A DNA stretch of 39,504 nt from a virus: positions 1 to 39,504 of IMG/VR virus record IMGVR_UViG_3300031565_000134; one strand, 5' to 3'. The notes beneath the pieces are model-generated. The model was not told where the DNA came from. It saw only the letters and a program-made list of their open reading frames with translations, and did not search any database. Position 1 is the stretch's first letter; each line of letters begins with the position of its first letter. This document shows, in pieces, positions 900 to 39,504 of the stretch. The translations under genes were made by a program, and so were the position numbers.

Positions 900-1235
900 A
901 TGAAGCAAAATAAATTCAGGAACAAACCTAAAACCGTAAACGGGATTAAATTTCAATCAACAAAAGAGGCAGATTTCTACATTAAACTTTTGATGCTAAA
1001 AAAGTTCGGTGAAATTAAAGAAATAGAATTGCAGCCTAGGTTCGATTATTTAATTACTTATTCGCAAAATGACCTTAGCCTAAGCAAAAAAACATTTTAC
1101 AAAGCCGATTTTAGGGTAAAATATACAAATAACGATGTTATTATTTATGACGTTAAAGGAGTTCGTACCCCCGAATTTATTCGCAAAAAGAAAATAATAG
1201 AGCACTTGTATAACATCAAAATAATTGAAGTATAA
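900..1235 (+). CDS. DUF1064-family PD-(D/E)XK nuclease
   Basis: 111 aa. The DUF1064 signature is clear: KFQSTKEADFY near the N-terminus (Glu23), IELQPRF, YKADFRV (Asp70) and YDVKG (Asp84, Lys86) followed by a conserved FIRKKK. These are the catalytic positions of the PD-(D/E)XK nuclease fold. DUF1064 proteins are common in phage replication modules and are proposed to act as Holliday-junction or branch nucleases; that role is inference here. It sits just downstream of the primase-helicase, fitting a replication or recombination job. Its stop codon overlaps the start of a long structured inverted repeat (1231-1308). Confidence 0.85.
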   Translation: MKQNKFRNKPKTVNGIKFQSTKEADFYIKLLMLKKFGEIKEIELQPRFDYLITYSQNDLSLSKKTFYKADFRVKYTNNDVIIYDVKGVRTPEFIRKKKIIEHLYNIKIIEV

Positions 1236-1308
1236 CGACCAAGTATTTATGCTGTTTTGTTTTTTTCTTTTTTTTAAAACAAAAATGTATTAAATACCAT
1301 GTTATGCG
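1231..1308 (+). repeat. attC-like structured intergenic site 1
   Basis: Nested inverted repeats begin on the stop codon of the preceding gene. Outer boxes are TATAAC (1231-1236) and GTTATG (1301-1306). Next come GTATTTA (1243-1249) and TAAATAC (1291-1297), a perfect 7-bp pair, then TGTTTT (1253-1258) and AAAACA (1276-1281). Spacers between outer and second boxes are 6 and 3 nt. This R''-L''-L'-R' arrangement, with AAC and GTT at the outer ends, is the layout of integron attC sites. A T-rich centre (1255-1275) leaves a termination hairpin as the main alternative. Confidence 0.45.
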
Positions 1309-1426
1309 TATTTTTATTTGTTCTTATTACTCGCTAGTTATCTTTATTAAATATGCTTTACAACACTTTTTAGTAAAATAATTGTAAATATATTTGTTTA
1401 TATCAAATAATATATTTATATTTGTG

Positions 1427-1434
1427 CTGTTGTT
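1427..1434 (+). promoter_or_regulatory. Possible Bacteroidota -7 box (TATATTTG)
   Basis: TATATTTG fits TAnnTTTG and lies 32 bp before the ATG at 1467. No well-spaced TTTG was found at -33; the nearest (1393-1396) is too far. The leader after it (about 1438-1455) can form a small hairpin between GTTGT and ACAAC. Confidence 0.4.
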
Positions 1435-1466
1435 AGTAACGAAGCTACAACGTAAAATACAGGACT

Positions 1467-1874
1467 ATGAAAGTGTATGAATATTCAAATAATACATCAA
1501 GTTTTATCGCTCAATATACAATCGGAAGCGATGGGTTGGTTTATCAAAGGCGACAAACAGTTTTTAATCATAAAGCCTCGTGGGGCAAATGGATTTTGTC
1601 AACAAGAAAATTAGATGATGAGTTTATGTCCGAATGCCACAAAGTTATTGAAATAAATCACAGAGCAGGGACGAAAATAAAAAGTTGTATTTTGATACAT
1701 AACGGCATCAAAATAGAGATTGAAAAAAGACCTTTTGCAATAGGTAGAAACCTTGCAATCGGGCTTTCTTCGATAGTTGAGAGTACAAAAAAAAAAGGTA
1801 GTGTAATGTTTGAATGTGAAAATAATTTACGCTCTGGGTGTGATTATGAAATACTTAAATTTAAAATATGTTAA
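1467..1874 (+). CDS. Hypothetical protein, 135 aa, co-expressed with XRE regulator
   Basis: A soluble protein with mixed alpha/beta composition and several Cys (positions in SECHK, SCILI, FECEN, SGCDY and FKIC). No family recognised. Its end overlaps the start of the XRE gene at 1868 by 7 bp, a two-gene arrangement reminiscent of a regulator or toxin paired with a HTH partner, but nothing in the sequence shows toxicity. It is preceded by a TATATTTG -7 box. Confidence 0.72.
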   Translation: MKVYEYSNNTSSFIAQYTIGSDGLVYQRRQTVFNHKASWGKWILSTRKLDDEFMSECHKVIEINHRAGTKIKSCILIHNGIKIEIEKRPFAIGRNLAIGLSSIVESTKKKGSVMFECENNLRSGCDYEILKFKIC

Positions 1875-2080
1875 AAGAAAAACTAAAAGAAATAAGAAAA
1901 CAAAAAGGCATTTCGCAGGGCAAACTTGCGAAGTTGCTTGTTGAAAAAGGTGCGCTGGAACATTGCACACCTGCTTATATATCGGCATTAGAAAACAAAG
2001 CATTTACAAATTTTGATTTATTTTTTTCGATTTGTGAGGTGCTGAATGTAGATGTCGAACTCGTTTTGCATTACGACTAA
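1868..2080 (+). CDS. XRE-family helix-turn-helix regulator
   Basis: 70 aa, nearly all of it a Cro/C1-type HTH domain: KEIRKQKGISQGKLAKLL (helices 1-2), then CTPAYISALEN (recognition helix and following turn) and FFSICEVLNVDVELVL (helices 4-5). It should bind operator DNA as a dimer; the target is unknown. It overlaps the upstream 135-aa gene, so the two are translationally coupled. Its stop codon lies inside the first box of the attC-like hairpin at 2075-2205. With no integrase in the genome, it need not be a lysogeny repressor. Confidence 0.83.
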   Translation: MLKEKLKEIRKQKGISQGKLAKLLVEKGALEHCTPAYISALENKAFTNFDLFFSICEVLNVDVELVLHYD

Positions 2081-2205
2081 CGTTGAGCGTATGAAATCGA
2101 AAGGGATTAGAAAGCACGTCTTTATCCAACGATAAAACGCCAATAGGAAGCACTACACAACGCATACTACTGAAAACCTTTTGTTTTATACGCTGTGTTA
2201 TCGGC
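2075..2205 (+). repeat. attC-like structured intergenic site 2
   Basis: A long imperfect hairpin starts on the stop codon of the XRE gene. Outer boxes are GACTAAC (2075-2081) and GTTATCGGC (2197-2205), sharing TAAC/GTTA. Second boxes AGCGTAT (2086-2092) and ATACGCT (2188-2194) are perfectly complementary. Pairing continues inward as AAA/TTT and AAAGG/CCTTT. The spacers between boxes are 4 and 2 nt. Its size of about 130 bp and nested layout resemble long attC sites such as Vibrio VCRs. There is no U tract after the hairpin, which argues against a terminator. Confidence 0.5.
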
Positions 2206-2215
2206 TGCCTTTTAT
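2197..2215 (+). repeat. 19-bp repeat GTTATCGGCTGCCTTTTAT, copy 1
   Basis: This intergenic 19-mer recurs exactly at 3639-3657, and its first nine bases GTTATCGGC recur at 7553-7561. All three copies are in intergenic DNA shortly after a gene end. It forms the right-hand end of the hairpin at 2075-2205. Confidence 0.8.
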
Positions 2216-2245
2216 TAATCAAATTTTAAACTTAAAAACATAGAT

Positions 2246-2542
2246 ATGAACAACGAAGAACAAATACCAAAGAAACAGCGCAAATTTGCTTTACAAAGTG
2301 TTATGCGCTGGCGACCTTTTAAACGAGAACCAAAGACAATAAAAGTGGTGATACCAGAAAACTGGATGAACTGCGCTGTGACAGTTGATAATAACTTTAT
2401 AGCCGACACCAACGATAGCAGTAATTGTGATAACCTTAAATTTCCACTACCTAAACCAAAACACAAATGGCACATAAAAAGCTATACAGGTGATATGAAT
2501 AGACCAAATAAAAGCGCAGTGGTGCTGATTGATAAGCCTTAG
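2246..2542 (+). CDS. Hypothetical protein, 98 aa
   Basis: Basic N-terminal part (EEQIPKKQRKFA, MRWRPFKREPK) followed by a beta-like stretch TIKVVIPENWMNCAVTV and a proline-rich end. No family recognised. It is a single-gene unit between the 19-bp repeat (2197-2215) and the intergenic repeat at 2550-2584. The start follows the leader ACTTAAAAACATAGAT. Confidence 0.65.
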   Translation: MNNEEQIPKKQRKFALQSVMRWRPFKREPKTIKVVIPENWMNCAVTVDNNFIADTNDSSNCDNLKFPLPKPKHKWHIKSYTGDMNRPNKSAVVLIDKP

Positions 2543-2549
2543 CTTGCGC

Positions 2550-2584
2550 ATAACATCTGTGTATACGAAATTGCTAAAATATTG
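2550..2584 (+). repeat. Intergenic repeat family, copy 1 (TATACG subfamily)
   Basis: Begins ATAACATCTG and continues TATACGAAATTGCTAAAATA. It starts 8 nt after the stop codon of the 98-aa gene and precedes a 44-aa zinc-finger gene. Close copies are at 2763-2797 and 3919-3954, and a diverged subfamily occurs four times between 29550 and 36868. Confidence 0.8.
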
Positions 2585-2621
2585 TATCAAAAAGATTTAT
2601 TAATTATTAAAAATTATCAAA

Positions 2622-2756
2622 ATGAAAAAATTAATTTTTAAAATTTTTAACAGGAATTATTATTGTAAAGATTGTGGCAGTACGCATATCTATCATTATG
2701 AACATGATTGTAAAGTATGTGCAGATTGCAGTTCTCGAAATATAGACTGTGATTAA
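2622..2756 (+). CDS. Zinc-finger mini-protein, 44 aa
   Basis: The product is very short but has six Cys: CKDC (15-18), then CKVCADC and two more near the end, with an intervening HIYHYEHD. This looks like a small zinc-binding ribbon. It lies between two copies of the intergenic repeat (2550-2584 and 2763-2797), so it is a self-contained single-gene unit. Function unknown; a protein-binding or anti-host role is possible but not shown. Confidence 0.65.
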   Translation: MKKLIFKIFNRNYYCKDCGSTHIYHYEHDCKVCADCSSRNIDCD

Positions 2757-2762
2757 TTGCAC

Positions 2763-2797
2763 ATAACATCTGTATATACGAAATTCCTATAATATTT
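2763..2797 (+). repeat. Intergenic repeat family, copy 2 (TATACG subfamily)
   Basis: ATAACATCTGTATATACG, then AAATT and an AT-rich end. It starts 6 nt after the stop of the zinc-finger gene and 20 bp before the next ATG. It contains the self-complementary octamer GTATATAC. Confidence 0.8.
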
Positions 2798-2817
2798 AAC
2801 AATTAAATAATAAAAAG

Positions 2818-3039
2818 ATGATTAAAGACACGACACAACAAGCAAAAGCAGCGCAATTCGCTATAGATAGTGTTAGAGTGCGTTTTTCAATTATCAAAAC
2901 TATTCTTTCAGGCTTCGCATTATTTGCCATTGTCGACAATGAGTTGAATAAAGTAGTCTGTCATTTGGGTTATGATAATGATGAAAAATACTGCGAAGAA
3001 ATGGCAAATAAAATGTTAGCTGGTTTAAATGGCTGCTAA
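2818..3039 (+). CDS. Hypothetical protein, 73 aa
   Basis: Alpha/beta composition, with a central hydrophobic stretch TILSGFALFAIVDN, which may be a buried strand or a weak membrane segment. It ends in LNGC. The last codons and stop (AATGGCTGCTAACG) nearly repeat the end of the 101-aa gene at 34333-34638 (AATGGCTGCTAGCG), although the proteins differ. No family recognised. Confidence 0.65.
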   Translation: MIKDTTQQAKAAQFAIDSVRVRFSIIKTILSGFALFAIVDNELNKVVCHLGYDNDEKYCEEMANKMLAGLNGC

Positions 3040-3062
3040 CGTTGACGGTATGAACTTTCATA
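3037..3062 (+). repeat. TAACGTTGA half-site with hairpin
   Basis: From the stop codon onward the sequence reads TAACGTTGACGGTATGAA, nearly the same as the left arm of the hairpin at 2078-2095 (TAACGTTGAGCGTATGAA). TATGAA and TTCATA (3049-3062) form a short hairpin. It looks like the left half of an attC-like site whose right half is missing or lies after the two inserted genes, at 3639. Confidence 0.4.
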
Positions 3063-3071
3063 TTGAAATAG

Positions 3072-3102
3072 TTTGCAAAATCAAAAAGAATGATTATATT
3101 TG
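3072..3102 (+). promoter_or_regulatory. Bacteroidota-type promoter
   Basis: TTTG (3072-3075), a 19-bp spacer and TATATTTG (3095-3102) fit the -33/-7 consensus exactly. Transcription should start about 3108 and drive the genes at 3134 and 3471. Confidence 0.7.
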
Positions 3103-3133
3103 TATCAGATTAATAACAATTAAAAATACAACG

Positions 3134-3481
3134 ATGACAACTTTAGCAAATACACCAGAAAACAACGCAAAAGTAAAAGCCTTAAAAGCAGTTGAAAACA
3201 CAGTAGGTAAAATATTTTGGACAGGTAATAACACACATGACAATTTAGAAAAATGCCTTGTAGGGTTAAACTTAGATAGTACAAATTCAGGATGGTATAA
3301 CCCTGTTGCAGTTAAAATAAACGGATTAACAGGTTATTATATGGTAAACCAAGATGGCTCATTGTTTTGCGAATCTCGTGTAATAAAACAAGAAGAAAAA
3401 AAATACCTTATCGAATACCTGACAAATGAAGGTTGGAACAAATTTGAAAACTTATACAGCCAATTTGTAGATGAAAACTAA
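3134..3481 (+). CDS. Hypothetical protein, 115 aa
   Basis: ATG at 3134 was chosen over the longer frame from 3029 because a good promoter lies at 3072-3102 and would start transcription inside the longer frame. The product begins MTTLANTPENNAKVKALKAV and has a glycine-aromatic middle (GWYNPVAVKINGLTGYYMVN) and an acidic end. The composition suggests a soluble alpha/beta protein. No family recognised. Its end overlaps the next gene by 11 nt. Confidence 0.68.
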   Translation: MTTLANTPENNAKVKALKAVENTVGKIFWTGNNTHDNLEKCLVGLNLDSTNSGWYNPVAVKINGLTGYYMVNQDGSLFCESRVIKQEEKKYLIEYLTNEGWNKFENLYSQFVDEN

Positions 3482-3635
3482 AAAAGAAACAAGGGGCGGT
3501 ACTCGAAAAGGTTCGGGTGCTAAACCTAAATACAGCGAGACGACAAAAACAGTATCTTTTCGTGTACCGATTTCAAGAATTGACCACGTTAAAAGTTTAC
3601 TCAAAACGCTGTTGGATGACTGGTCTGTTAAATAG
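3471..3635 (+). CDS. Small basic DNA-binding-like protein, 54 aa
   Basis: Overlaps the upstream stop by 11 nt, so it is translationally coupled. The N-terminus KETRGGTRKGSGAKPKYSE resembles the GGxRxGAGRK basic motif seen on many small Bacteroidota and phage DNA-binding proteins. It is followed by KTVSFRVPISRIDHVKSLLK, which has the strand-helix look of a ribbon-helix-helix protein. A DNA-binding or regulatory role is inferred. Confidence 0.68.
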   Translation: MKTKKETRGGTRKGSGAKPKYSETTKTVSFRVPISRIDHVKSLLKTLLDDWSVK

Positions 3636-3638
3636 CGT

Positions 3639-3657
3639 GTTATCGGCTGCCTTTTAT
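3639..3657 (+). repeat. 19-bp repeat GTTATCGGCTGCCTTTTAT, copy 2
   Basis: Exact copy of 2197-2215. Its first nine bases are the reverse complement of GCCGATAAC at 3915-3923, so the two motifs frame the 74-aa gene 3686-3910. Confidence 0.8.
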
Positions 3658-3685
3658 CTGATTATTAATTAAATACATAAATAAA

Positions 3686-3910
3686 ATGAAAAATTTACAG
3701 AATTTAGAGATTATTAATATCTCAACAAAAGAAGGAAAATTAGTTGCTTTAGTATCATATCAAGATACATCAGCTATCGGTGAAGATTTAAACAACGGTT
3801 ACGGAACTATTGAAATACCAATTAATCCACGAGAAATTCAAACTTCAATTCGTGGTAATATGTTGGTTGACCAATCGGTTAAAAATTATGTTGATGTTGC
3901 AACTTCGTAA
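3686..3910 (+). CDS. Hypothetical protein, 74 aa, in cassette-like unit
   Basis: Mostly beta-strand composition: LEIINISTKEGKLVALVSYQ, then GTIEIPINPREIQTSIRGNM, with no membrane segment. No family recognised. It is flanked by GTTATCGGC (3639-3647) on the left and the exactly complementary GCCGATAAC (3915-3923) 5 nt after its stop, the arrangement expected of a mobile single-gene cassette. Confidence 0.68.
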   Translation: MKNLQNLEIINISTKEGKLVALVSYQDTSAIGEDLNNGYGTIEIPINPREIQTSIRGNMLVDQSVKNYVDVATS

Positions 3911-3918
3911 GGTTGCCG

Positions 3919-3954
3919 ATAACGTCTGTATATACGAAATTGCTAAAATATATT
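3919..3954 (+). repeat. Intergenic repeat family, copy 3 (TATACG subfamily)
   Basis: ATAACGTCTGTATATACG, then AAATTGCTAAAATATAT. It overlaps GCCGATAAC (3915-3923). It separates the 74-aa gene from the gene at 3973. Confidence 0.8.
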
Positions 3955-3972
3955 ACAATTAAATTAAACAAA

Positions 3973-4221
3973 ATGAGCGAAGAAAAGAAGTTGCTACTAA
4001 TAGCTATCGAATACATTAAGCTTAAATCTAATCAAAAAACAGATAAGTCTCTTATTTTAGAGGCTATTAGTTCTATTGCTGGACATTATAGCGTAGTACT
4101 TAGAAAAACGCCGCAAAAGCAAGTTTCTGATGCTTGCATTGTAGAGTTTCTAGAAAATAAAACTGGTTATAAAAATAATCTGAATAAGCTCTACAATTCG
4201 ATAAATCAATTCAATTGTTAA
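3973..4221 (+). CDS. Hypothetical helical protein, 82 aa
   Basis: ATG at 3973 follows AATTAAATTAAACAAA, a typical A-rich start region. A longer frame from 3913 would translate the intergenic repeat and is rejected. The protein is helical and charged (MSEEKKLLLIAIEYIKLKSN at the start), with a basic middle VVLRKTPQKQ and an Asn-rich end. No family recognised. The paired GTTAAAA boxes of the next promoter begin at its stop codon. Confidence 0.62.
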   Translation: MSEEKKLLLIAIEYIKLKSNQKTDKSLILEAISSIAGHYSVVLRKTPQKQVSDACIVEFLENKTGYKNNLNKLYNSINQFNC

Positions 4222-5549: not shown

Positions 5550-5704
5550 GAAAATTAATGTTACGCTACATAATCGGCCTATTAACAGGCGTTTTAATCA
5601 TGTCAATGGGTAGGTATAAAATACATGGGTATCACCTTTTAATGCTTGCTTTTTGTATTATTTATTTTGTATTCGATTTACTGAATGAAAAAAATAAGTG
5701 TTAA
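5546..5704 (+). CDS. Small membrane protein, 52 aa, two helices
   Basis: Two hydrophobic segments, YIIGLLTGVLIMSMG (about 8-22) and LLMLAFCIIYFVFDLL (about 31-46), are joined by a short basic loop RYKIHGYH. It should sit in the inner membrane as a hairpin. It is the last gene of the 4304-5704 operon and is followed at once by the boxes of module B, whose first GTTAAAA overlaps its stop. Function unknown. Confidence 0.65.
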   Translation: MRKLMLRYIIGLLTGVLIMSMGRYKIHGYHLLMLAFCIIYFVFDLLNEKNKC

Positions 5705-5761
5705 AAAATGTTAAAATAGTGTAGACACTATTGTGCATATCAGAAATAGTTCGTATCTTTA
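5700..5761 (+). promoter_or_regulatory. Promoter module B: paired GTTAAAA boxes plus palindrome
   Basis: GTTAAAA at 5700-5706 and 5710-5716, then the palindrome TAGTGT-AG-ACACTA (5717-5730), ATTG (5730-5733) and TATCTTTA (5754-5761) after 20 bp. The second box starts 44 bp before the -7 box. It drives 5806 onward. Confidence 0.7.
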
Positions 5762-5805
5762 CATCATAGAAATCAAGATAACATTAACAATTAAAAAATA
5801 TCATT

Positions 5806-6054
5806 ATGAAAACTTCAAGAAAAGAAATAGAGCAAAATTCAAAAACAAGAAAATCAAGTTCAAGTTACAAAAATTATTCTTTTGAAAAAGAAGGTTTATT
5901 TTTCGAAACTAGCTGTGTAGGAGTAATGGTTACTAATTATTCTGAATCATTTAAATGTGATTTGAAAATATCAGAGACGGGTGCGTTAGGTGAAGCTTTT
6001 ACTAAAAAAGATTTCGTTAATAAGGTGTATGATTATCTAAATAGTTTTAAATAA
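5806..6054 (+). CDS. Hypothetical protein, 82 aa
   Basis: Ser/Lys-rich N-terminus (QNSKTRKSSSSYKNYSFEK), then FFETSCVGVMVTNYSESFK and KKDFVNKVYDYLNSF. No family recognised. It is the first gene after promoter module B, with a leader ending TTAACAATTAAAAAATATCATT. Confidence 0.65.
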   Translation: MKTSRKEIEQNSKTRKSSSSYKNYSFEKEGLFFETSCVGVMVTNYSESFKCDLKISETGALGEAFTKKDFVNKVYDYLNSFK

Positions 6055-6090
6055 TTAAAAAGGCTGAGCTATCGGCCAAACGGGCGTATT

Positions 6091-6577: not shown

Positions 6578-6668
6578 ATACGCAAAAGGCTGGGACCACG
6601 TGGATGCTATGACTAGATATTTGAAATTAGCACACGTTTATAGTTCGATTCTATAGTGTAATGCGTAT
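6578..6668 (+). tRNA. tRNA-like element, degenerate or non-canonical
   Basis: ATACGCA (6578-6584) pairs perfectly with TGCGTAT (6662-6668) like an acceptor stem. TATAG-TTCGATT-CTATA (6639-6655) is a perfect T-arm with the classic GTTCGATTC core. Against a working tRNA: six unpaired bases separate the T-arm from the acceptor strand, the D-arm is weak, and no standard 7-nt anticodon loop could be placed. It may be a decayed tRNA or a tRNA mimic. Confidence 0.3.
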
Positions 6669-6694
6669 TAATTATTTAACAACAGATACAAAAC

Positions 6695-6817
6695 ATGAGC
6701 AATCATAAAATAATATCAATCCTAATAATCCTAACATGGGTAATAATCGGAGCGATAATAAAAAAAAGATCCACAATTAAGAAAATTTTTATATCTTTGT
6801 TACAGGTTTTTTCATAA
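6695..6817 (+). CDS. Membrane peptide, 40 aa
   Basis: One hydrophobic segment (KIISILIILTWVIIGAII, about 5-22) followed by a basic stretch KKRSTIKK. This suggests a single-pass inner-membrane peptide with a cytoplasmic basic tail. A TATCTTTG box (6792-6799) overlaps its 3' end. Function unknown. Confidence 0.5.
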   Translation: MSNHKIISILIILTWVIIGAIIKKRSTIKKIFISLLQVFS

Positions 6818-6853
6818 TTTCATAATTTTAATTGTTTTAATTAATATTGGCTG

Positions 6854-6884
6854 AAAAAAGCTGCTCTTTTGGGGTAGCTTTTTT
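6854..6884 (+). terminator. Rho-independent terminator
   Basis: AAAAAAGCT (6854-6862) pairs with AGCTTTTTT (6876-6884), extended by G/C pairs around a TTTT loop. The 3' arm is the U tract. It may end a short transcript from a possible TATCTTTG box at 6792-6799. Confidence 0.7.
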
Positions 6885-6913
6885 GTTTATATTAATTATT
6901 AATCTTATCTTTG
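6882..6913 (+). promoter_or_regulatory. Bacteroidota-type promoter
   Basis: TTTG (6882-6885), a 20-bp spacer and TATCTTTG (6906-6913). It lies directly after the terminator and 45 bp before the ATG of the secreted-protein gene at 6958. Confidence 0.7.
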
Positions 6914-6957
6914 TGTGTTTAAAGTATTATACTTATTGTTAAATTAAATTTTATAAA

Positions 6958-7248
6958 ATGAAAAAAATTATCTTATTTTTAATGTTTTTGGTGGGTCTTT
7001 TCCTATTTGAAAACACGGAAACAAAAGCAAAAGATTTTAGTCCATATTGTGGGACTATAATTAGCCAAGATTTAAACATCCAAATTGATGGAGTTCCGTT
7101 AAATCTTATTGAGTTAAATCTTATTGAGTTAAAGAGTAATAACATTTTCAGGCAAAGATATTTAGGCCATAAATGTAATAAAATTAAATCCAATACGTAT
7201 TTTAATAATTTTGTTTTCGATAATTCGTTTAATAAATTTATAAAATAA
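6958..7248 (+). CDS. Secreted hypothetical protein, 96 aa
   Basis: The N-terminus MKKIILFLMFLVGLFLFENT is a signal peptide with a basic end and hydrophobic core. Cleavage is likely near KAKDF (about residue 25). The mature part is basic and Asn-rich, with two Cys (PYCG and HKCN) that could form a disulphide. It contains two exact 15-bp tandem repeats (7099-7128) encoding a duplicated NLIEL. It is a monocistronic unit with its own promoter and terminator, like a lysogenic-conversion or moron gene. Function unknown. Confidence 0.7.
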   Translation: MKKIILFLMFLVGLFLFENTETKAKDFSPYCGTIISQDLNIQIDGVPLNLIELNLIELKSNNIFRQRYLGHKCNKIKSNTYFNNFVFDNSFNKFIK

Positions 7249-7270
7249 TTGTTTTAAAAAATCTTTTATA

Positions 7271-7311
7271 AAGGTCTGCAAATTCGAGGGGGTTGCGTAG
7301 ACCTTTTTTTT
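7271..7311 (+). terminator. Rho-independent terminator
   Basis: AAGGTCT (7271-7277) pairs with AGACCTT (7299-7305), with inner CAA/TTG pairing and a run of eight T. It ends the monocistronic secreted-protein transcript. Confidence 0.85.
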
Positions 7312-7369
7312 ATGCGATTTTTTTTGTAATTTTGTATTTGATATCTCAATTATTTTTAAATAAAAGCCT

Positions 7370-7534
7370 ATGAAAAAACCAATATTTACAGAAGAACAGA
7401 GGCGCACATGGTATACCATAGATTTTGAAGTTGCAAAACTAAAATTTAAACGAGAAATTGAAAAAGGCTATTTAGGGAAATTACTTAAAATAATACTAGA
7501 AAAGTTGGCAAAAATATTATTGTATTTACATTAA
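7370..7534 (+). CDS. Hypothetical basic protein, 54 aa
   Basis: MKKPIFTEEQRRTWYTIDFE then a long basic helix (KLKFKREIEKGYLGKLLKII) and hydrophobic end LEKLAKILLYLH, probably amphipathic. A TAATTTTG box at 7327-7334 may be its -7 element. It lies just before the late region and is followed by GTTATCGGC (7553-7561) and a terminator. No family recognised. Confidence 0.55.
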   Translation: MKKPIFTEEQRRTWYTIDFEVAKLKFKREIEKGYLGKLLKIILEKLAKILLYLH

Positions 7535-7552
7535 AGAATTTGAACCAGCCCT

Positions 7553-7561
7553 GTTATCGGC
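7553..7561 (+). repeat. GTTATCGGC motif, third copy
   Basis: The same nine bases start the 19-bp repeats at 2197 and 3639. This copy is 19 nt after the stop of the 54-aa gene, and its last two bases are also the first bases of the terminator stem. Confidence 0.6.
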
Positions 7562-7594
7562 TAATCAGGAAATTTACTGGTTAGCTTTTTTTTT
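7560..7594 (+). terminator. Rho-independent terminator before the late region
   Basis: GCTAATCAG (7560-7568) pairs with CTGGTTAGC (7577-7585; one G-T pair) around an 8-nt loop, followed by nine T. It insulates the late operon from the accessory genes upstream. Confidence 0.9.
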
Positions 7595-7595
7595 A

Positions 7596-7603
7596 TATCT
7601 TTG
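7596..7603 (+). promoter_or_regulatory. Late promoter -7 box (TATCTTTG)
   Basis: TATCTTTG fits TAnnTTTG and starts one base after the terminator T run, 8 bp before the ATG of the terminase small subunit. The leader would be extremely short or absent (leaderless-like). The expected -33 region falls in the terminator loop (TTTACTGG), so the promoter may need a phage factor. Confidence 0.6.
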
Positions 7604-7610
7604 TATCATT

Positions 7611-8066
7611 ATGGCTTATACAGATGAACAAATAGAATCAATTTTTAAATCCGTAATGGATATGATTGAGGAAGGTATGCCATTACGCCAAATATTACGG
7701 CTTAAGGATATGCCTAGTACTCAAACTTTTTATAGGTGGCTTAAGTTTGATGAAGAAAAATCAAAACGTTACGCACGATCCTCTGATATCAGAGCAGATC
7801 AGATTTTTGATGAAATGTTTGATATTGCAGATAATGGAACAAATGATTATACTGAATTTGAAAATTCAGAAGGTATAAAAGTTTCCAAATTTAATCCTGA
7901 AAATGTTCAGAGATCACGATTAAGAATTGATACAAGGAAATGGGCTTTGTCAAAAATGAACCCCAAAAAATATGGAGATAAATTAGATCTTAGCTCCGGA
8001 GGCGAAAAAATCACAGCCCCATCCCCTTTAATAATCAACGTAGACGGCAAAGAATTAGAATTATAA
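7611..8066 (+). CDS. Terminase small subunit
   Basis: 151 aa. The N-terminal HTH-like region (RLKDMPSTQTFYRWLKFDEE) matches small terminases that read the packaging site. The C-terminal RIDTRKWALSKMNPKKYGDK is the hallmark of the Sf6 gp1-like family. It should form a ring, recognise phage DNA and hand it to the large subunit. It is the first gene of the late region, 3 nt before terL. The assignment rests on this signature and the position. Confidence 0.88.
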   Translation: MAYTDEQIESIFKSVMDMIEEGMPLRQILRLKDMPSTQTFYRWLKFDEEKSKRYARSSDIRADQIFDEMFDIADNGTNDYTEFENSEGIKVSKFNPENVQRSRLRIDTRKWALSKMNPKKYGDKLDLSSGGEKITAPSPLIINVDGKELEL

Positions 8067-29537: not shown

Positions 29538-29549
29538 TTTTATTTGCTT

Positions 29550-29588
29550 ATAACGTTCCAATATCCGCAATTGCGGTAAAATATATTC
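29550..29588 (+). repeat. Intergenic repeat family, copy 4 (CCGC subfamily)
   Basis: ATAACGTTCCAATATCCGCA, then ATTGCGG and AAAATATATTC. It includes the perfect palindrome CCGCAATTGCGG (29565-29576). It separates a membrane peptide gene from the 48-aa gene. Confidence 0.85.
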
Positions 29589-29611
29589 GATAATAATTTA
29601 AAAAAAAAGTT

Positions 29612-29758
29612 ATGAAAACAATGAACCCAGAACACGTGGACGAAATAGTCAGAAAATTAAAAGAAAAGGACTTTAATGATGAGCAAATTGAAGACATCTT
29701 AATAGATGTAGAATACGCTTATGATGAAACTATTCAACCATTAGAAGACAATTATTAG
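29612..29758 (+). CDS. Hypothetical acidic helical protein, 48 aa
   Basis: MKTMNPEHVDEIVRKLKEKD then FNDEQIEDILIDVEYAYDET. Very acidic and helical; UBA-like three-helix spacing is possible but not certain. It is a single-gene unit between the repeat at 29550 and the gene at 29785. No family recognised. Confidence 0.55.
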   Translation: MKTMNPEHVDEIVRKLKEKDFNDEQIEDILIDVEYAYDETIQPLEDNY

Positions 29759-34332: not shown

Positions 34333-34638
34333 ATGAATGAATTACCACAACGCCAGCAATCAAATATAGGTGCTGTTAGCAGCCGTTTATCCAAGTTGCC
34401 AAAATGGGCACAATTTGAATTTGAGAAAAAAGAAAGACAAGTGAAAGAATTAGAATATAAACTTGAACAATCTGAAAAGGCAAACGAAATAACGTCAACA
34501 ATGGATTGGTTTACACTTGGCTTTCACATGAATGAAGCGAGGTCGCTATTTATATTGCACAAAGATGCAGCTTCAAAAGTTGCAACAATTGGTGAAGGAA
34601 CAATAATGTTAATTGGTCGTCCTAAAAATGGCTGCTAG
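34333..34638 (+). CDS. Hypothetical coiled-coil protein, 101 aa
   Basis: N-terminal part with LSKLPKWAQFEFEKKERQVK, then a coiled-coil run (ELEYKLEQSEKANE) and a globular end (MDWFTLGFHMNEARSLFILH). The phrase 'LPKWAQ' before a coil is familiar from small phage proteins of unknown role. The last codons and stop (GGCTGCTAGCG) start the next intergenic repeat copy. Confidence 0.66.
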   Translation: MNELPQRQQSNIGAVSSRLSKLPKWAQFEFEKKERQVKELEYKLEQSEKANEITSTMDWFTLGFHMNEARSLFILHKDAASKVATIGEGTIMLIGRPKNGC

Positions 34639-34673
34639 CGTCTCAATATCCGCAATTGCGGGAAAATATATTC
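34635..34673 (+). repeat. Intergenic repeat family, copy 5 (CCGC subfamily)
   Basis: CTAGCGTCTCAATATCCGCA, then ATTGCGGG and AAAATATATTC. It begins within the stop codon of the 101-aa gene and holds the perfect palindrome CCGCAATTGCGG (34650-34661). Confidence 0.85.
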
Positions 34674-34696
34674 ATTAATCATTAAAAATTAAAATC

Positions 34697-34930
34697 ATGA
34701 ATAAAGAATTAGCGAACTGGATTTATTGGGAAGAAGGACACACTTACTACTGTTTTAACTGTGTTCAAAAAAGGGTTGAAGAAATCAACGCAAACAAAGA
34801 ATTTGCTGAGGATATAGATTATGAGGGAGGTGATGACTGTGGATATTATCAGGATTATGCAGATGAAGAAGAGGAAGTAGAATGCTGCAAATGCGGTAAA
34901 CAACTATTCTCAACTGGGGTGGATGCTTAA
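34697..34930 (+). CDS. Acidic zinc-binding protein, 77 aa
   Basis: CFNC near the N-terminus (YYCFNCVQKRVEEIN) and CCKCGKQLF near the end form a CxxC...CxxC site. The middle is highly acidic (DYEGGDDCGYYQDYADEEEE). It is a single-gene unit between copies 5 and 6 of the intergenic repeat. Function unknown. Confidence 0.66.
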   Translation: MNKELANWIYWEEGHTYYCFNCVQKRVEEINANKEFAEDIDYEGGDDCGYYQDYADEEEEVECCKCGKQLFSTGVDA

Positions 34931-34936
34931 TGCCCC

Positions 34937-34974
34937 ATAACGTCTCAATATCCGCAATTGCAAAAAAATAATAG
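34937..34974 (+). repeat. Intergenic repeat family, copy 6 (CCGC subfamily)
   Basis: ATAACGTCTCAATATCCGCA then ATTGC and an A-rich end; the right arm of the palindrome has decayed. It lies 7 nt after the stop of the 77-aa gene and before the RecT-like gene. Confidence 0.85.
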
Positions 34975-36816: not shown

Positions 36817-36828
36817 GGCAAAATTGCA

Positions 36829-36868
36829 TACAACGTCTCAATATCCGCAATTCCGAAAAAATATATTC
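36829..36868 (+). repeat. Intergenic repeat family, copy 7 (CCGC subfamily)
   Basis: TACAACGTCTCAATATCCGC then AATTCCG and AAAAATATATTC; the palindrome has one mismatch. It lies 13 nt after the stop of the 86-aa gene. Confidence 0.85.
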
Positions 36869-36894
36869 ATTAATTTAACTTAAAATTTATCGCT

Positions 36895-38316: not shown

Positions 38317-39504
38317 AATATCAAAGCTCTATAACGAAGTTAGTTTTTGATTTTGATTTTAACTTAGATGCAAAAAAACGCTATTCTTGCCCTGAGTGCT
38401 CATCAAATTCAAAGCGAAAAAACCCTTTAGATGTTCAATTCTACCCTACAACAAAAATTGCTTATTGTCATAAATGTCAGAGTACTTTTTTTGAGTACAA
38501 ACAATTTGAGCGCAAACAGGAATATATTTGTCCAGAATGGAAAAACACAACAGAACTAAGCGACAAGGCGGTAAAATGGTTTACAAGTAGAATGATTTCG
38601 CAAAACACGCTTAAAGAAATGAAAGTTTATACTGCAATTGAGTATATGCCCCAGTTCAATAAAAATATTGATGTTATTTGCTTCCCTTTCTTCATCGATG
38701 AAAAACTGGTAAATATAAAATTTCGAGGCGCAGAAAAATCTTTCAAACTTACAAGCGGAGCGGAATTAGTTTGGTATAATTTCAATGCTTTAAAAAAATT
38801 CAAAGAGATTATCATATGCGAAGGTGAAATGGATGCCCTCACATGGATTGAAAATGGGTATGAAAATGTAATATCAGTTCCAAACGGGGCAAGTGGGAAG
38901 TTAGAATTTTTAGATAATTCGATAGATCTATTTGAAGATATTGAGAAATTTTATTTAAGTACTGACAATGATTCAGCAGGGATTAAATTAAGAGACGAGT
39001 TAATTAGGCGTTTAGGGGCTGAAAGATGCGTTTTAATAAACTTTAAACAGTTTAAGGATGCAAACGACTACTTTGTTGGTTTAGGGGGCTTAGAGTTCAA
39101 GAAATTGATAAATGATGGGGTACCTGTTCCGATTAAGGGGATAATTAATATTGATTCGATGTACTCCGAAATTTTAGATTTATACGAAAATGGGGTAAAA
39201 ACTGGACTCCCAATAAATAATTCAGAAATTGATAAATACATGACAATTGAATCAGGTAGATTAATGATTGTGACAGGAATCCCAGGGTCTGGTAAGTCTG
39301 AATTTATTGATTATCTGGTATCAAGATTAAATTTAATATATGGGTGGAAGTCAGCATTTTTTACACCTGAAAATTACCCTCTAAAATATCATTATAGAAA
39401 AATTCATGAGAAATATTCAGGATGCCAATTTGATAAAAAAACAGATACAACAGACTTTGTCAGCATTTTTGAATACATAAAAGATAATTTTTTCTATATC
39501 TTGG
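38313..39504 (+). CDS. Primase-helicase, N-terminal part (continues at base 1)
   Basis: 397 codons to the window end; with 160-735 the protein is 588 aa. Order of parts: zinc ribbon CPEC (26-29) with CHKC (52-55); Toprim-type primase with ICEGEMDAL (Glu170) and STDNDSAG (Asp218, Asp220); then the RecA-like helicase with Walker A TGIPGSGKSE (Lys328) and FTPENYP. This is the Twinkle/T7 gp4 architecture, making primers and unwinding DNA on the lagging strand. No separate DNA polymerase is in the genome, so a host polymerase must be used. Its ATG overlaps the initiator stop. Confidence 0.94.
   Translation, partial: MKYQSSITKLVFDFDFNLDAKKRYSCPECSSNSKRKNPLDVQFYPTTKIAYCHKCQSTFFEYKQFERKQEYICPEWKNTTELSDKAVKWFTSRMISQNTLKEMKVYTAIEYMPQFNKNIDVICFPFFIDEKLVNIKFRGAEKSFKLTSGAELVWYNFNALKKFKEIIICEGEMDALTWIENGYENVISVPNGASGKLEFLDNSIDLFEDIEKFYLSTDNDSAGIKLRDELIRRLGAERCVLINFKQFKDANDYFVGLGGLEFKKLINDGVPVPIKGIINIDSMYSEILDLYENGVKTGLPINNSEIDKYMTIESGRLMIVTGIPGSGKSEFIDYLVSRLNLIYGWKSAFFTPENYPLKYHYRKIHEKYSGCQFDKKTDTTDFVSIFEYIKDNFFYIL
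39345..39504. repeat. Terminal redundancy, right copy
   Basis: Same 160 bases as 1-160 except C at 39378 (T at 34). The C version keeps Pro in the FTPENYP motif of the primase-helicase, so it is the more likely wild-type base. Confidence 0.93.

Follow-up and report, generated by a model that had tools for sequence, protein, structure and literature searches.

An inverted attC-like site of Bacteroidota type in a phage genome, and cassette arrays in related Flavobacterium phages

The attC-like site and its neighbourhood

The window, a virus contig that was analysed over its whole length of 39,504 bases, carries a 160-nt direct repeat at its two ends (1-160 and 39345-39504, 99% identity) and therefore probably represents a circular or terminally redundant phage genome. 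By terminase, its closest named relative is OP947161 (49% identity); many further terminase matches are phages of Bacteroidota, and the RecT-like gene has matches in Flavobacterium phages. The terminase, the RecT-like gene and the kinship with OP947161 thus place the window among the tailed phages. A profile search with PF00589 found no tyrosine recombinase encoded in the window, even at E 10, which bears out the initial annotation in its remark that the phage genome lacks an integrase.

At the left end of the window, a DUF1064 or Holliday-junction-resolvase-like gene is encoded on the plus strand (900-1235; PF06356, E = 6.5e-17; phrog_190). Its stop codon TAA (1233-1235) sits within the left box of an attC-like site that spans positions 1230-1307, matches a covariance model on the plus strand and has its canonical orientation on the minus strand. 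Read along the plus strand, the left box GTATAAC (1230-1236) is the reverse complement of a canonical R' box, GTTATAC. It is followed by the spacer on the R'-L' side (GACCAA, 6 nt, 1237-1242) and by the left arm GTATTTATGC (1243-1252), which corresponds to the canonical L' in the model alignment and contains GTATTTA at 1243-1249. The variable terminal structure (1253-1286) folds into an AT-rich inner hairpin, TGTTTTG...AAAACAAAA, with TGTTTT/AAAACA as the inner boxes of the site. The right arm GTATtAAATAC (1287-1297, with TAAATAC at 1291-1297) represents the canonical L'' with an extrahelical base, and leads via a 3-nt spacer, CAT (1298-1300), to the right box GTTATGC (1301-1307), the reverse complement of a canonical R'' box, GCATAAC.

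The L''/L' stem thus comprises six pairs, set off from the R boxes by spacers of 6 and 3 nt, and one extra T follows the six pairs in the right arm, at the position at which chromosomal attCs have their extra base. The terminal R boxes, with AAC and GTT, are complementary to each other over 7/7 pairs, one of them G-T. On the minus strand they read GCATAAC and GTTATAC, departing from the consensus RYYYAAC / GTTRRRY at one position on each side, and chromosomal Bacteroidota attCs carry the same R boxes. From the breakpoints of related phages described below, the crossover in the left box is predicted to fall between A and C (canonical G^TTATAC). The boxes, their complementarity, the AAC and GTT at the outer ends and the stop codon inside the left box had all been described in the initial annotation, and every one of these points proved exact.

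The annotation had confined itself to this one site behind the DUF1064 gene. The site stands, but the picture was incomplete: behind several small genes there are half-sites and a second full site in degenerate form. Between the two full sites lies a two-gene unit (1467-2080, plus strand) that forms candidate cassette cargo. Its first gene encodes a protein of 135 aa with no known family and its second an HTH protein of 70 aa (PF01381, E=2e-7), and the pair may constitute a toxin-antitoxin-like arrangement. The first protein (1467-1874) has no match in plasmids, phages or the 395 genomes from the phylum of a Flammeovirgaceae-titled MAG. By eye, a Bacteroidota-type promoter (TAnnTTTG) can be made out upstream of the unit. 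The second site (2075-2205, minus strand; L-stem score 10.2) reads GACTAAC-5nt-GCGTATGAAA ... TTTTATACGC-3nt-GTTATCGG; its L stem is good, its R boxes are not complementary and it has no match to the covariance model. It resembles a site in OP947161 that the model scores at 13.0 bits.

The half-sites all lie on the plus strand. Two belong to the repeat family D1 (GCATAACATCTGTGTATACGAAATTGC, 2548-2574; ACATAACATCTGTATATACGAAATTCCT, 2761-2788), and another, TGCTAACGTTGACGGTATGAA (3034-3054), is located at the stop codon of the ORF 2818-3039. Members of the repeat family D2 are found at 29546-29577 (ATAACGTTCCAATATCCGCAATTGCGG), 34631-34660, 34932-34962 and 36826-36856. A candidate cassette at 3639-3923 is opened by the R box GTTATCGGC (3639-3647), contains a 74-aa ORF (3686-3910) and is closed by the R box GCCGATAAC (3915-3923), after which a further half-site, GTCTGTATATACGAAATTGC, follows. 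The two boxes that flank this ORF are perfectly complementary (9/9). The boxes flanking 1467-2080 and 2246-2542 are not complementary, and complementarity across the gene, the cassette rule, therefore holds in one of the three cases that can be tested in the window.

We also observed that the half-site repeats stand directly past stop codons and form two families, ATAACRTCTGTATATACGAAATTGC and ATAACGTCTCAATATCCGCAATTGCGG, the second of which holds the palindrome CCGCAATTGCGG; their right halves are missing. The repeat stretches run over 2544-2603, 2757-2816, 3913-3972, 29546-29616, 34631-34701, 34929-34970 and 36822-36883. Across the window, TAACG clusters at gene ends, with ten occurrences at most 20 nt past a stop codon where 1.9 are expected (p = 1e-5), and CGTTA is absent from these positions (1.0 expected).

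We read this region as an inverted cassette array in decay that has retained one intact attC. The term CALIN, usually reserved for two or more predicted attCs in close proximity, does not apply to it, nor is the window a complete integron, with neither intI nor a tyrosine recombinase. An Rfam scan of the whole window returned no match, and a comparison of the region 1220-3980 with plasmid and phage DNA gave matches at chance level only. When viral and genome contigs were searched for the half-site patterns, only a near-identical contig was convincing. The only near relative found, the contig L004, is 99.99% identical to the window over 10 kb, so that cassette movement is invisible in this lineage.

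Covariance model, folding and orientation

For reference sites we turned to the phylum of the Flammeovirgaceae-titled MAG, Bacteroidota, where 108 of the 395 genomes encode an integron integrase at E <= 1e-50; the loci around twenty of these integrases hold clear attC arrays. Our own covariance model, R1, was made from an alignment of 24 attCs located beside intI and comparable sites; the terminal structure was masked in it, and the structure was set by hand. R1 recovers about 100 attCs in 20 chromosomal loci, a number that includes the training sites, which match by construction. In the window, searched on both strands, the site at 1230-1307 ranks top with 25.2 bits (E = 1.1e-4). The next-best match is a short hairpin (16.9 bits), and there is no second match of attC quality in the window, as the second site and the half-sites fall below the model. 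As a null, R1 was run with filters off, since the default filters lose sites of 25-30 bits. It then scored no higher than 12.3 bits in AT-rich viral contigs totalling 95.8 kb, and the maximum over 80 kb of sequence from Flavobacterium phages was 14.1 bits. As a positive control, the Polaribacter phage P12002L gave 30.5 bits between two of its methyltransferase genes, at a site that is presumably its published attC2. An alignment of phage sites was attempted for a second model, and their left arms aligned poorly.

A covariance-model hit and extrahelical bases had been proposed in the annotation as checks on an attC. R1 provides the former, and the extra T after the sixth pair in the right arm is an instance of the latter. 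Compared with R1, two L-arm pairs of the window site are changed on both sides.

Pairing alone is not convincing genome-wide in DNA as AT-rich as this. Of dinucleotide shuffles of the window, 35% contain, on one strand or the other, a structure-only score as good as that of the site, and structure-only scoring was rejected as sole proof on that account. Once sequence and spacing are taken into account, as in R1, the match becomes significant. The local RNA fold at the site has -19 kcal/mol (z = -3.1). Folded as RNA only, the plus strand, which corresponds to the canonical bottom strand, pairs both sets of boxes and the inner A/T hairpin, and the full attC fold is the minimum. With DNA parameters, another fold is slightly more stable than the full attC fold, both for the minus strand and for the site alone. 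The attC fold of the canonical top strand as DNA has a probability of 0.04, compared with 0 to 0.53 in 26 reference sites; the DNA folds represent the top strand and not the recombinogenic bottom strand, and count only as a comparison with reference sites that were treated in the same way.

In six chromosomal arrays, 46/48 cassette ORFs are opposite to the strand on which R1 matches, and two low-GC arrays agree, from which it follows that R1 reads the bottom strand. The R1 match on the plus strand therefore places the canonical attC of the window on the minus strand, with the window genes on the plus strand. Spacer lengths and bulge likewise name the minus strand as the canonical top, with R'' = GCATAAC and R' = GTTATAC. 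The R''-L''-L'-R' plan seen in the initial annotation thus survives in its spacers, boxes and model match, and its labels need to be reversed. The usual direction, in which the ORF runs toward its attC, does not apply in the window. The same inversion is found in P12002L, where genes and R1 match are both on the minus strand, and in the viral contig IMGVR_UViG_3300046710_000109 (L017), where both R1 sites and the genes are on the plus strand. A further contig, L011, shows it at lower R1 scores and encodes a tyrosine recombinase (PF00589). In L017, which is GC-rich, three short attC-like hairpins (6950-7700) can be seen by eye after successive small genes, with boxes around each gene that are 8/8 complementary.

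Cassette arrays in Flavobacterium phages

A scan for the pattern TAAC-spacer-stem...stem-spacer-GTTA drew attention to Flavobacterium phages. The genomes of 13 phages of Flavobacterium sp. LMO6/LMO9 each contain 9-15 such sites on the strand of the genes, compared with 1-5 on the opposite strand. The inversion seen in the window holds for Flavobacterium phages as well. For each gene, the right box of the hairpin before it was paired with the left box of the hairpin behind it, and box complementarity was not used for site detection. The boxes flanking one gene are 4/4 complementary in 37 of 43 unique pairs, compared with 4/46 for the two boxes of one hairpin (Fisher p=3e-14; random pairing averages 0.93 of 4). 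Since complementarity runs across the gene, the integron-cassette rule fits these arrays, the integrated attC being split across the cassette. The minus strand of the Flavobacterium phage FPSV-D35, which also encodes an integrase (tyrosine recombinase, PF00589), holds eight attC-like sites and six pairs that obey the rule. Shuffled sequences of 91 loci yielded no such pair.

The breakpoints between LMO6/LMO9 phage genomes contain the predicted crossover box, a gene-strand TAAC, in 34/65 cases, compared with 10% expected (p=1e-17), and GTTA is not enriched in the same breakpoints (10/65 against a null of 12%). The 65 breakpoints were deduplicated, with junctions that share sequence counted once; kinship among the genomes makes the p values optimistic.

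One unit has moved between two isolates of one phage. A 0.44-kb segment with a 288-bp gene, located at 5637-6080 in lillamy9-1, is found 100% identical at 2037-2480 in lillamy9-7, with the flanks closed up. The letters common to the joints are (T)TATAAC, 5-7 bp; the hairpin forms the start of the moved unit, and the following TTATAAC its end. Judged from these junctions, the move is compatible with a crossover within the canonical R' box, at G^TT, and the spacer-and-bulge anatomy independently names the breakpoint box as R'. As a separate observation, a methyltransferase block of ~1.2 kb is inserted in hemulen9-1 (6644-7825) relative to stinky9-1 (6644-6659), with joints at TAACGT boxes. Searched with PF00589, the records of filifjonk9-1, lillamy9-1, lillamy9-7 and P12002L proved free of tyrosine recombinases.

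Origin, activity and significance of the site

We consider it probable that the site at 1230-1307 is a Bacteroidota-type integron attC, inverted within a phage gene string. One competing explanation is that of a transcription terminator or 3'-end mRNA hairpin behind the DUF1064 stop, followed by TATTTTTATTTG, with convergent attC likeness. The site shares with intrinsic terminators its hairpin at a gene end, which lies on the gene strand, has a stable RNA fold (z=-3.1) and is followed by a T-rich stretch on its 3' side. A G-C-rich stem is missing, however: the stem is mostly A-T with internal loops, there is no T tract directly past the inner stem, and a terminator scan of the window does not report the site. 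A terminator would moreover leave unaccounted for the recombination-box anatomy, that is the conserved TAACGACC, the 6/3 spacers, the bulge position and the attC model score, as well as the box rule and the breakpoints of the related phages. We therefore regard this explanation as unlikely on its own, but attCs are thought to contain weak terminators (PMC9892861), so both may hold. It is about equally unlikely that the arrays are boundary sequences at which ordinary homologous or illegitimate recombination exchanges gene modules between phages. The repeated half-sites at gene ends could serve as short homologies for such events, but the lillamy junctions share only 5-7 bp and the breakpoints prefer the left box over the right. 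The least probable explanation, a chance hairpin in AT-rich DNA, would account for the structure-only score equalled in 35% of the shuffles, but hardly for an R1 match of E=1e-4, 11 bits higher than any in roughly 176 kb of comparable phage DNA, for the exact placement on a stop codon or for the enrichment of TAACG at gene ends.

A more serious contender, which overlaps with the attC reading as a sub-case, is an inert relic, a true attC by descent from an old cassette insertion that no longer recombines. The other sites of the window, which are half-sites or have mismatched boxes, and the absence of an integrase speak for it; the intact site with all seven R-box pairs formed, one of them G-T, and the perfect 9/9 box pair around the ORF 3686-3910 speak against it. 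We treat the relic as a distinct possibility, though one that we do not favour.

If the site is an inverted attC, the left box with the DUF1064 stop codon would be the canonical R' box, cut by the integron integrase (G^TTATAC, minus strand). A cassette would then consist of the hairpin, the right box, the downstream gene or genes and the next TAAC box. The attC would precede its gene instead of standing behind it, and the gene would be read by the phage's own transcription. Because neither the window nor the four phage records encode a tyrosine recombinase, we infer an enzyme acting in trans. Exchange would most simply be carried out by a host IntI while the phage replicates, with the folded single strand as its substrate, and the window's own site may still be active.

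The closest known counterparts of the site are the attCs of chromosomal Bacteroidota integrons, in arrays beside intI (TIGR02249). These share its R boxes, the 6/3-nt spacers, TAACGACC, the model match and the two-part stem with the extra base at the same place. In contrast to them, the window site has A-T-rich arms, a short T/A-rich terminal structure and no intI, and it is inverted relative to the neighbouring genes.

The occurrence of attCs in a phage genome without integrase had been put forward in the initial annotation as new ground. It is not, as phage attCs, CALINs in virulent phages and recombination by IntI1 have been published (Qi et al. 2023, PMC9892861). Across 10,705 genomes, that study reports 17 CALINs together with a small number of full integrons. 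It tested recombination in a heterologous assay, and attC2 of P12002L was recombined by IntI1. As in the window, its attCs lie in gene blocks of phages without integrase, that of P12002L is also opposite to the genes, and divergent attC directions were noted in this phage. In the part of the article drawn on here, the TJE1 and PH101 arrays are typical, one-direction arrays, and systematic inversion or movement between isolates is not reported; the window, for its part, has only one supported site. The LMO6/LMO9 phages (Lillamyvirus, Muminvirus, Hattifnattvirus; PMC7077304) resemble the window in their gene-strand TAACG hairpins at gene ends and in the lack of a tyrosine recombinase in the records searched. 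Each of them has 9-15 sites, among which the cassette rule is intact, whereas the window has mostly half-sites. PMC7077304 mentions neither integrons nor attC, and in the open-access literature, which here comprises PMC9892861 without its supplement, we came across neither inverted arrays nor the movement of cassettes in phages. The window site as such hence belongs to the already known phage attCs, and what goes beyond the published cases covered here is that related phages carry inverted arrays which have been shuffled in nature.

On balance we lean toward a model in which Bacteroidota phages, including virulent ones, keep integrase-less arrays with every attC inverted. Through a recombinase of the host, phages would exchange small accessory genes, DNA methyltransferases among them; the captured genes would be read by phage transcription, and the window would carry such an array in a decayed state. 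LMO9 phages that plate poorly on LMO6 lack a particular methyltransferase (PMC7077304). With methyltransferase genes in the array region, cassette exchange may therefore influence how well a phage infects a given host.

Earlier evidence for recombination came from a heterologous assay (PMC9892861), whereas the isolates of one virulent phage compared here show that a cassette has moved in nature. The inverted layout suggests a way in which such arrays could rely on phage transcription and dispense with a cassette promoter. Whether host integrons supply anti-restriction genes to virulent phages thereby becomes directly testable.
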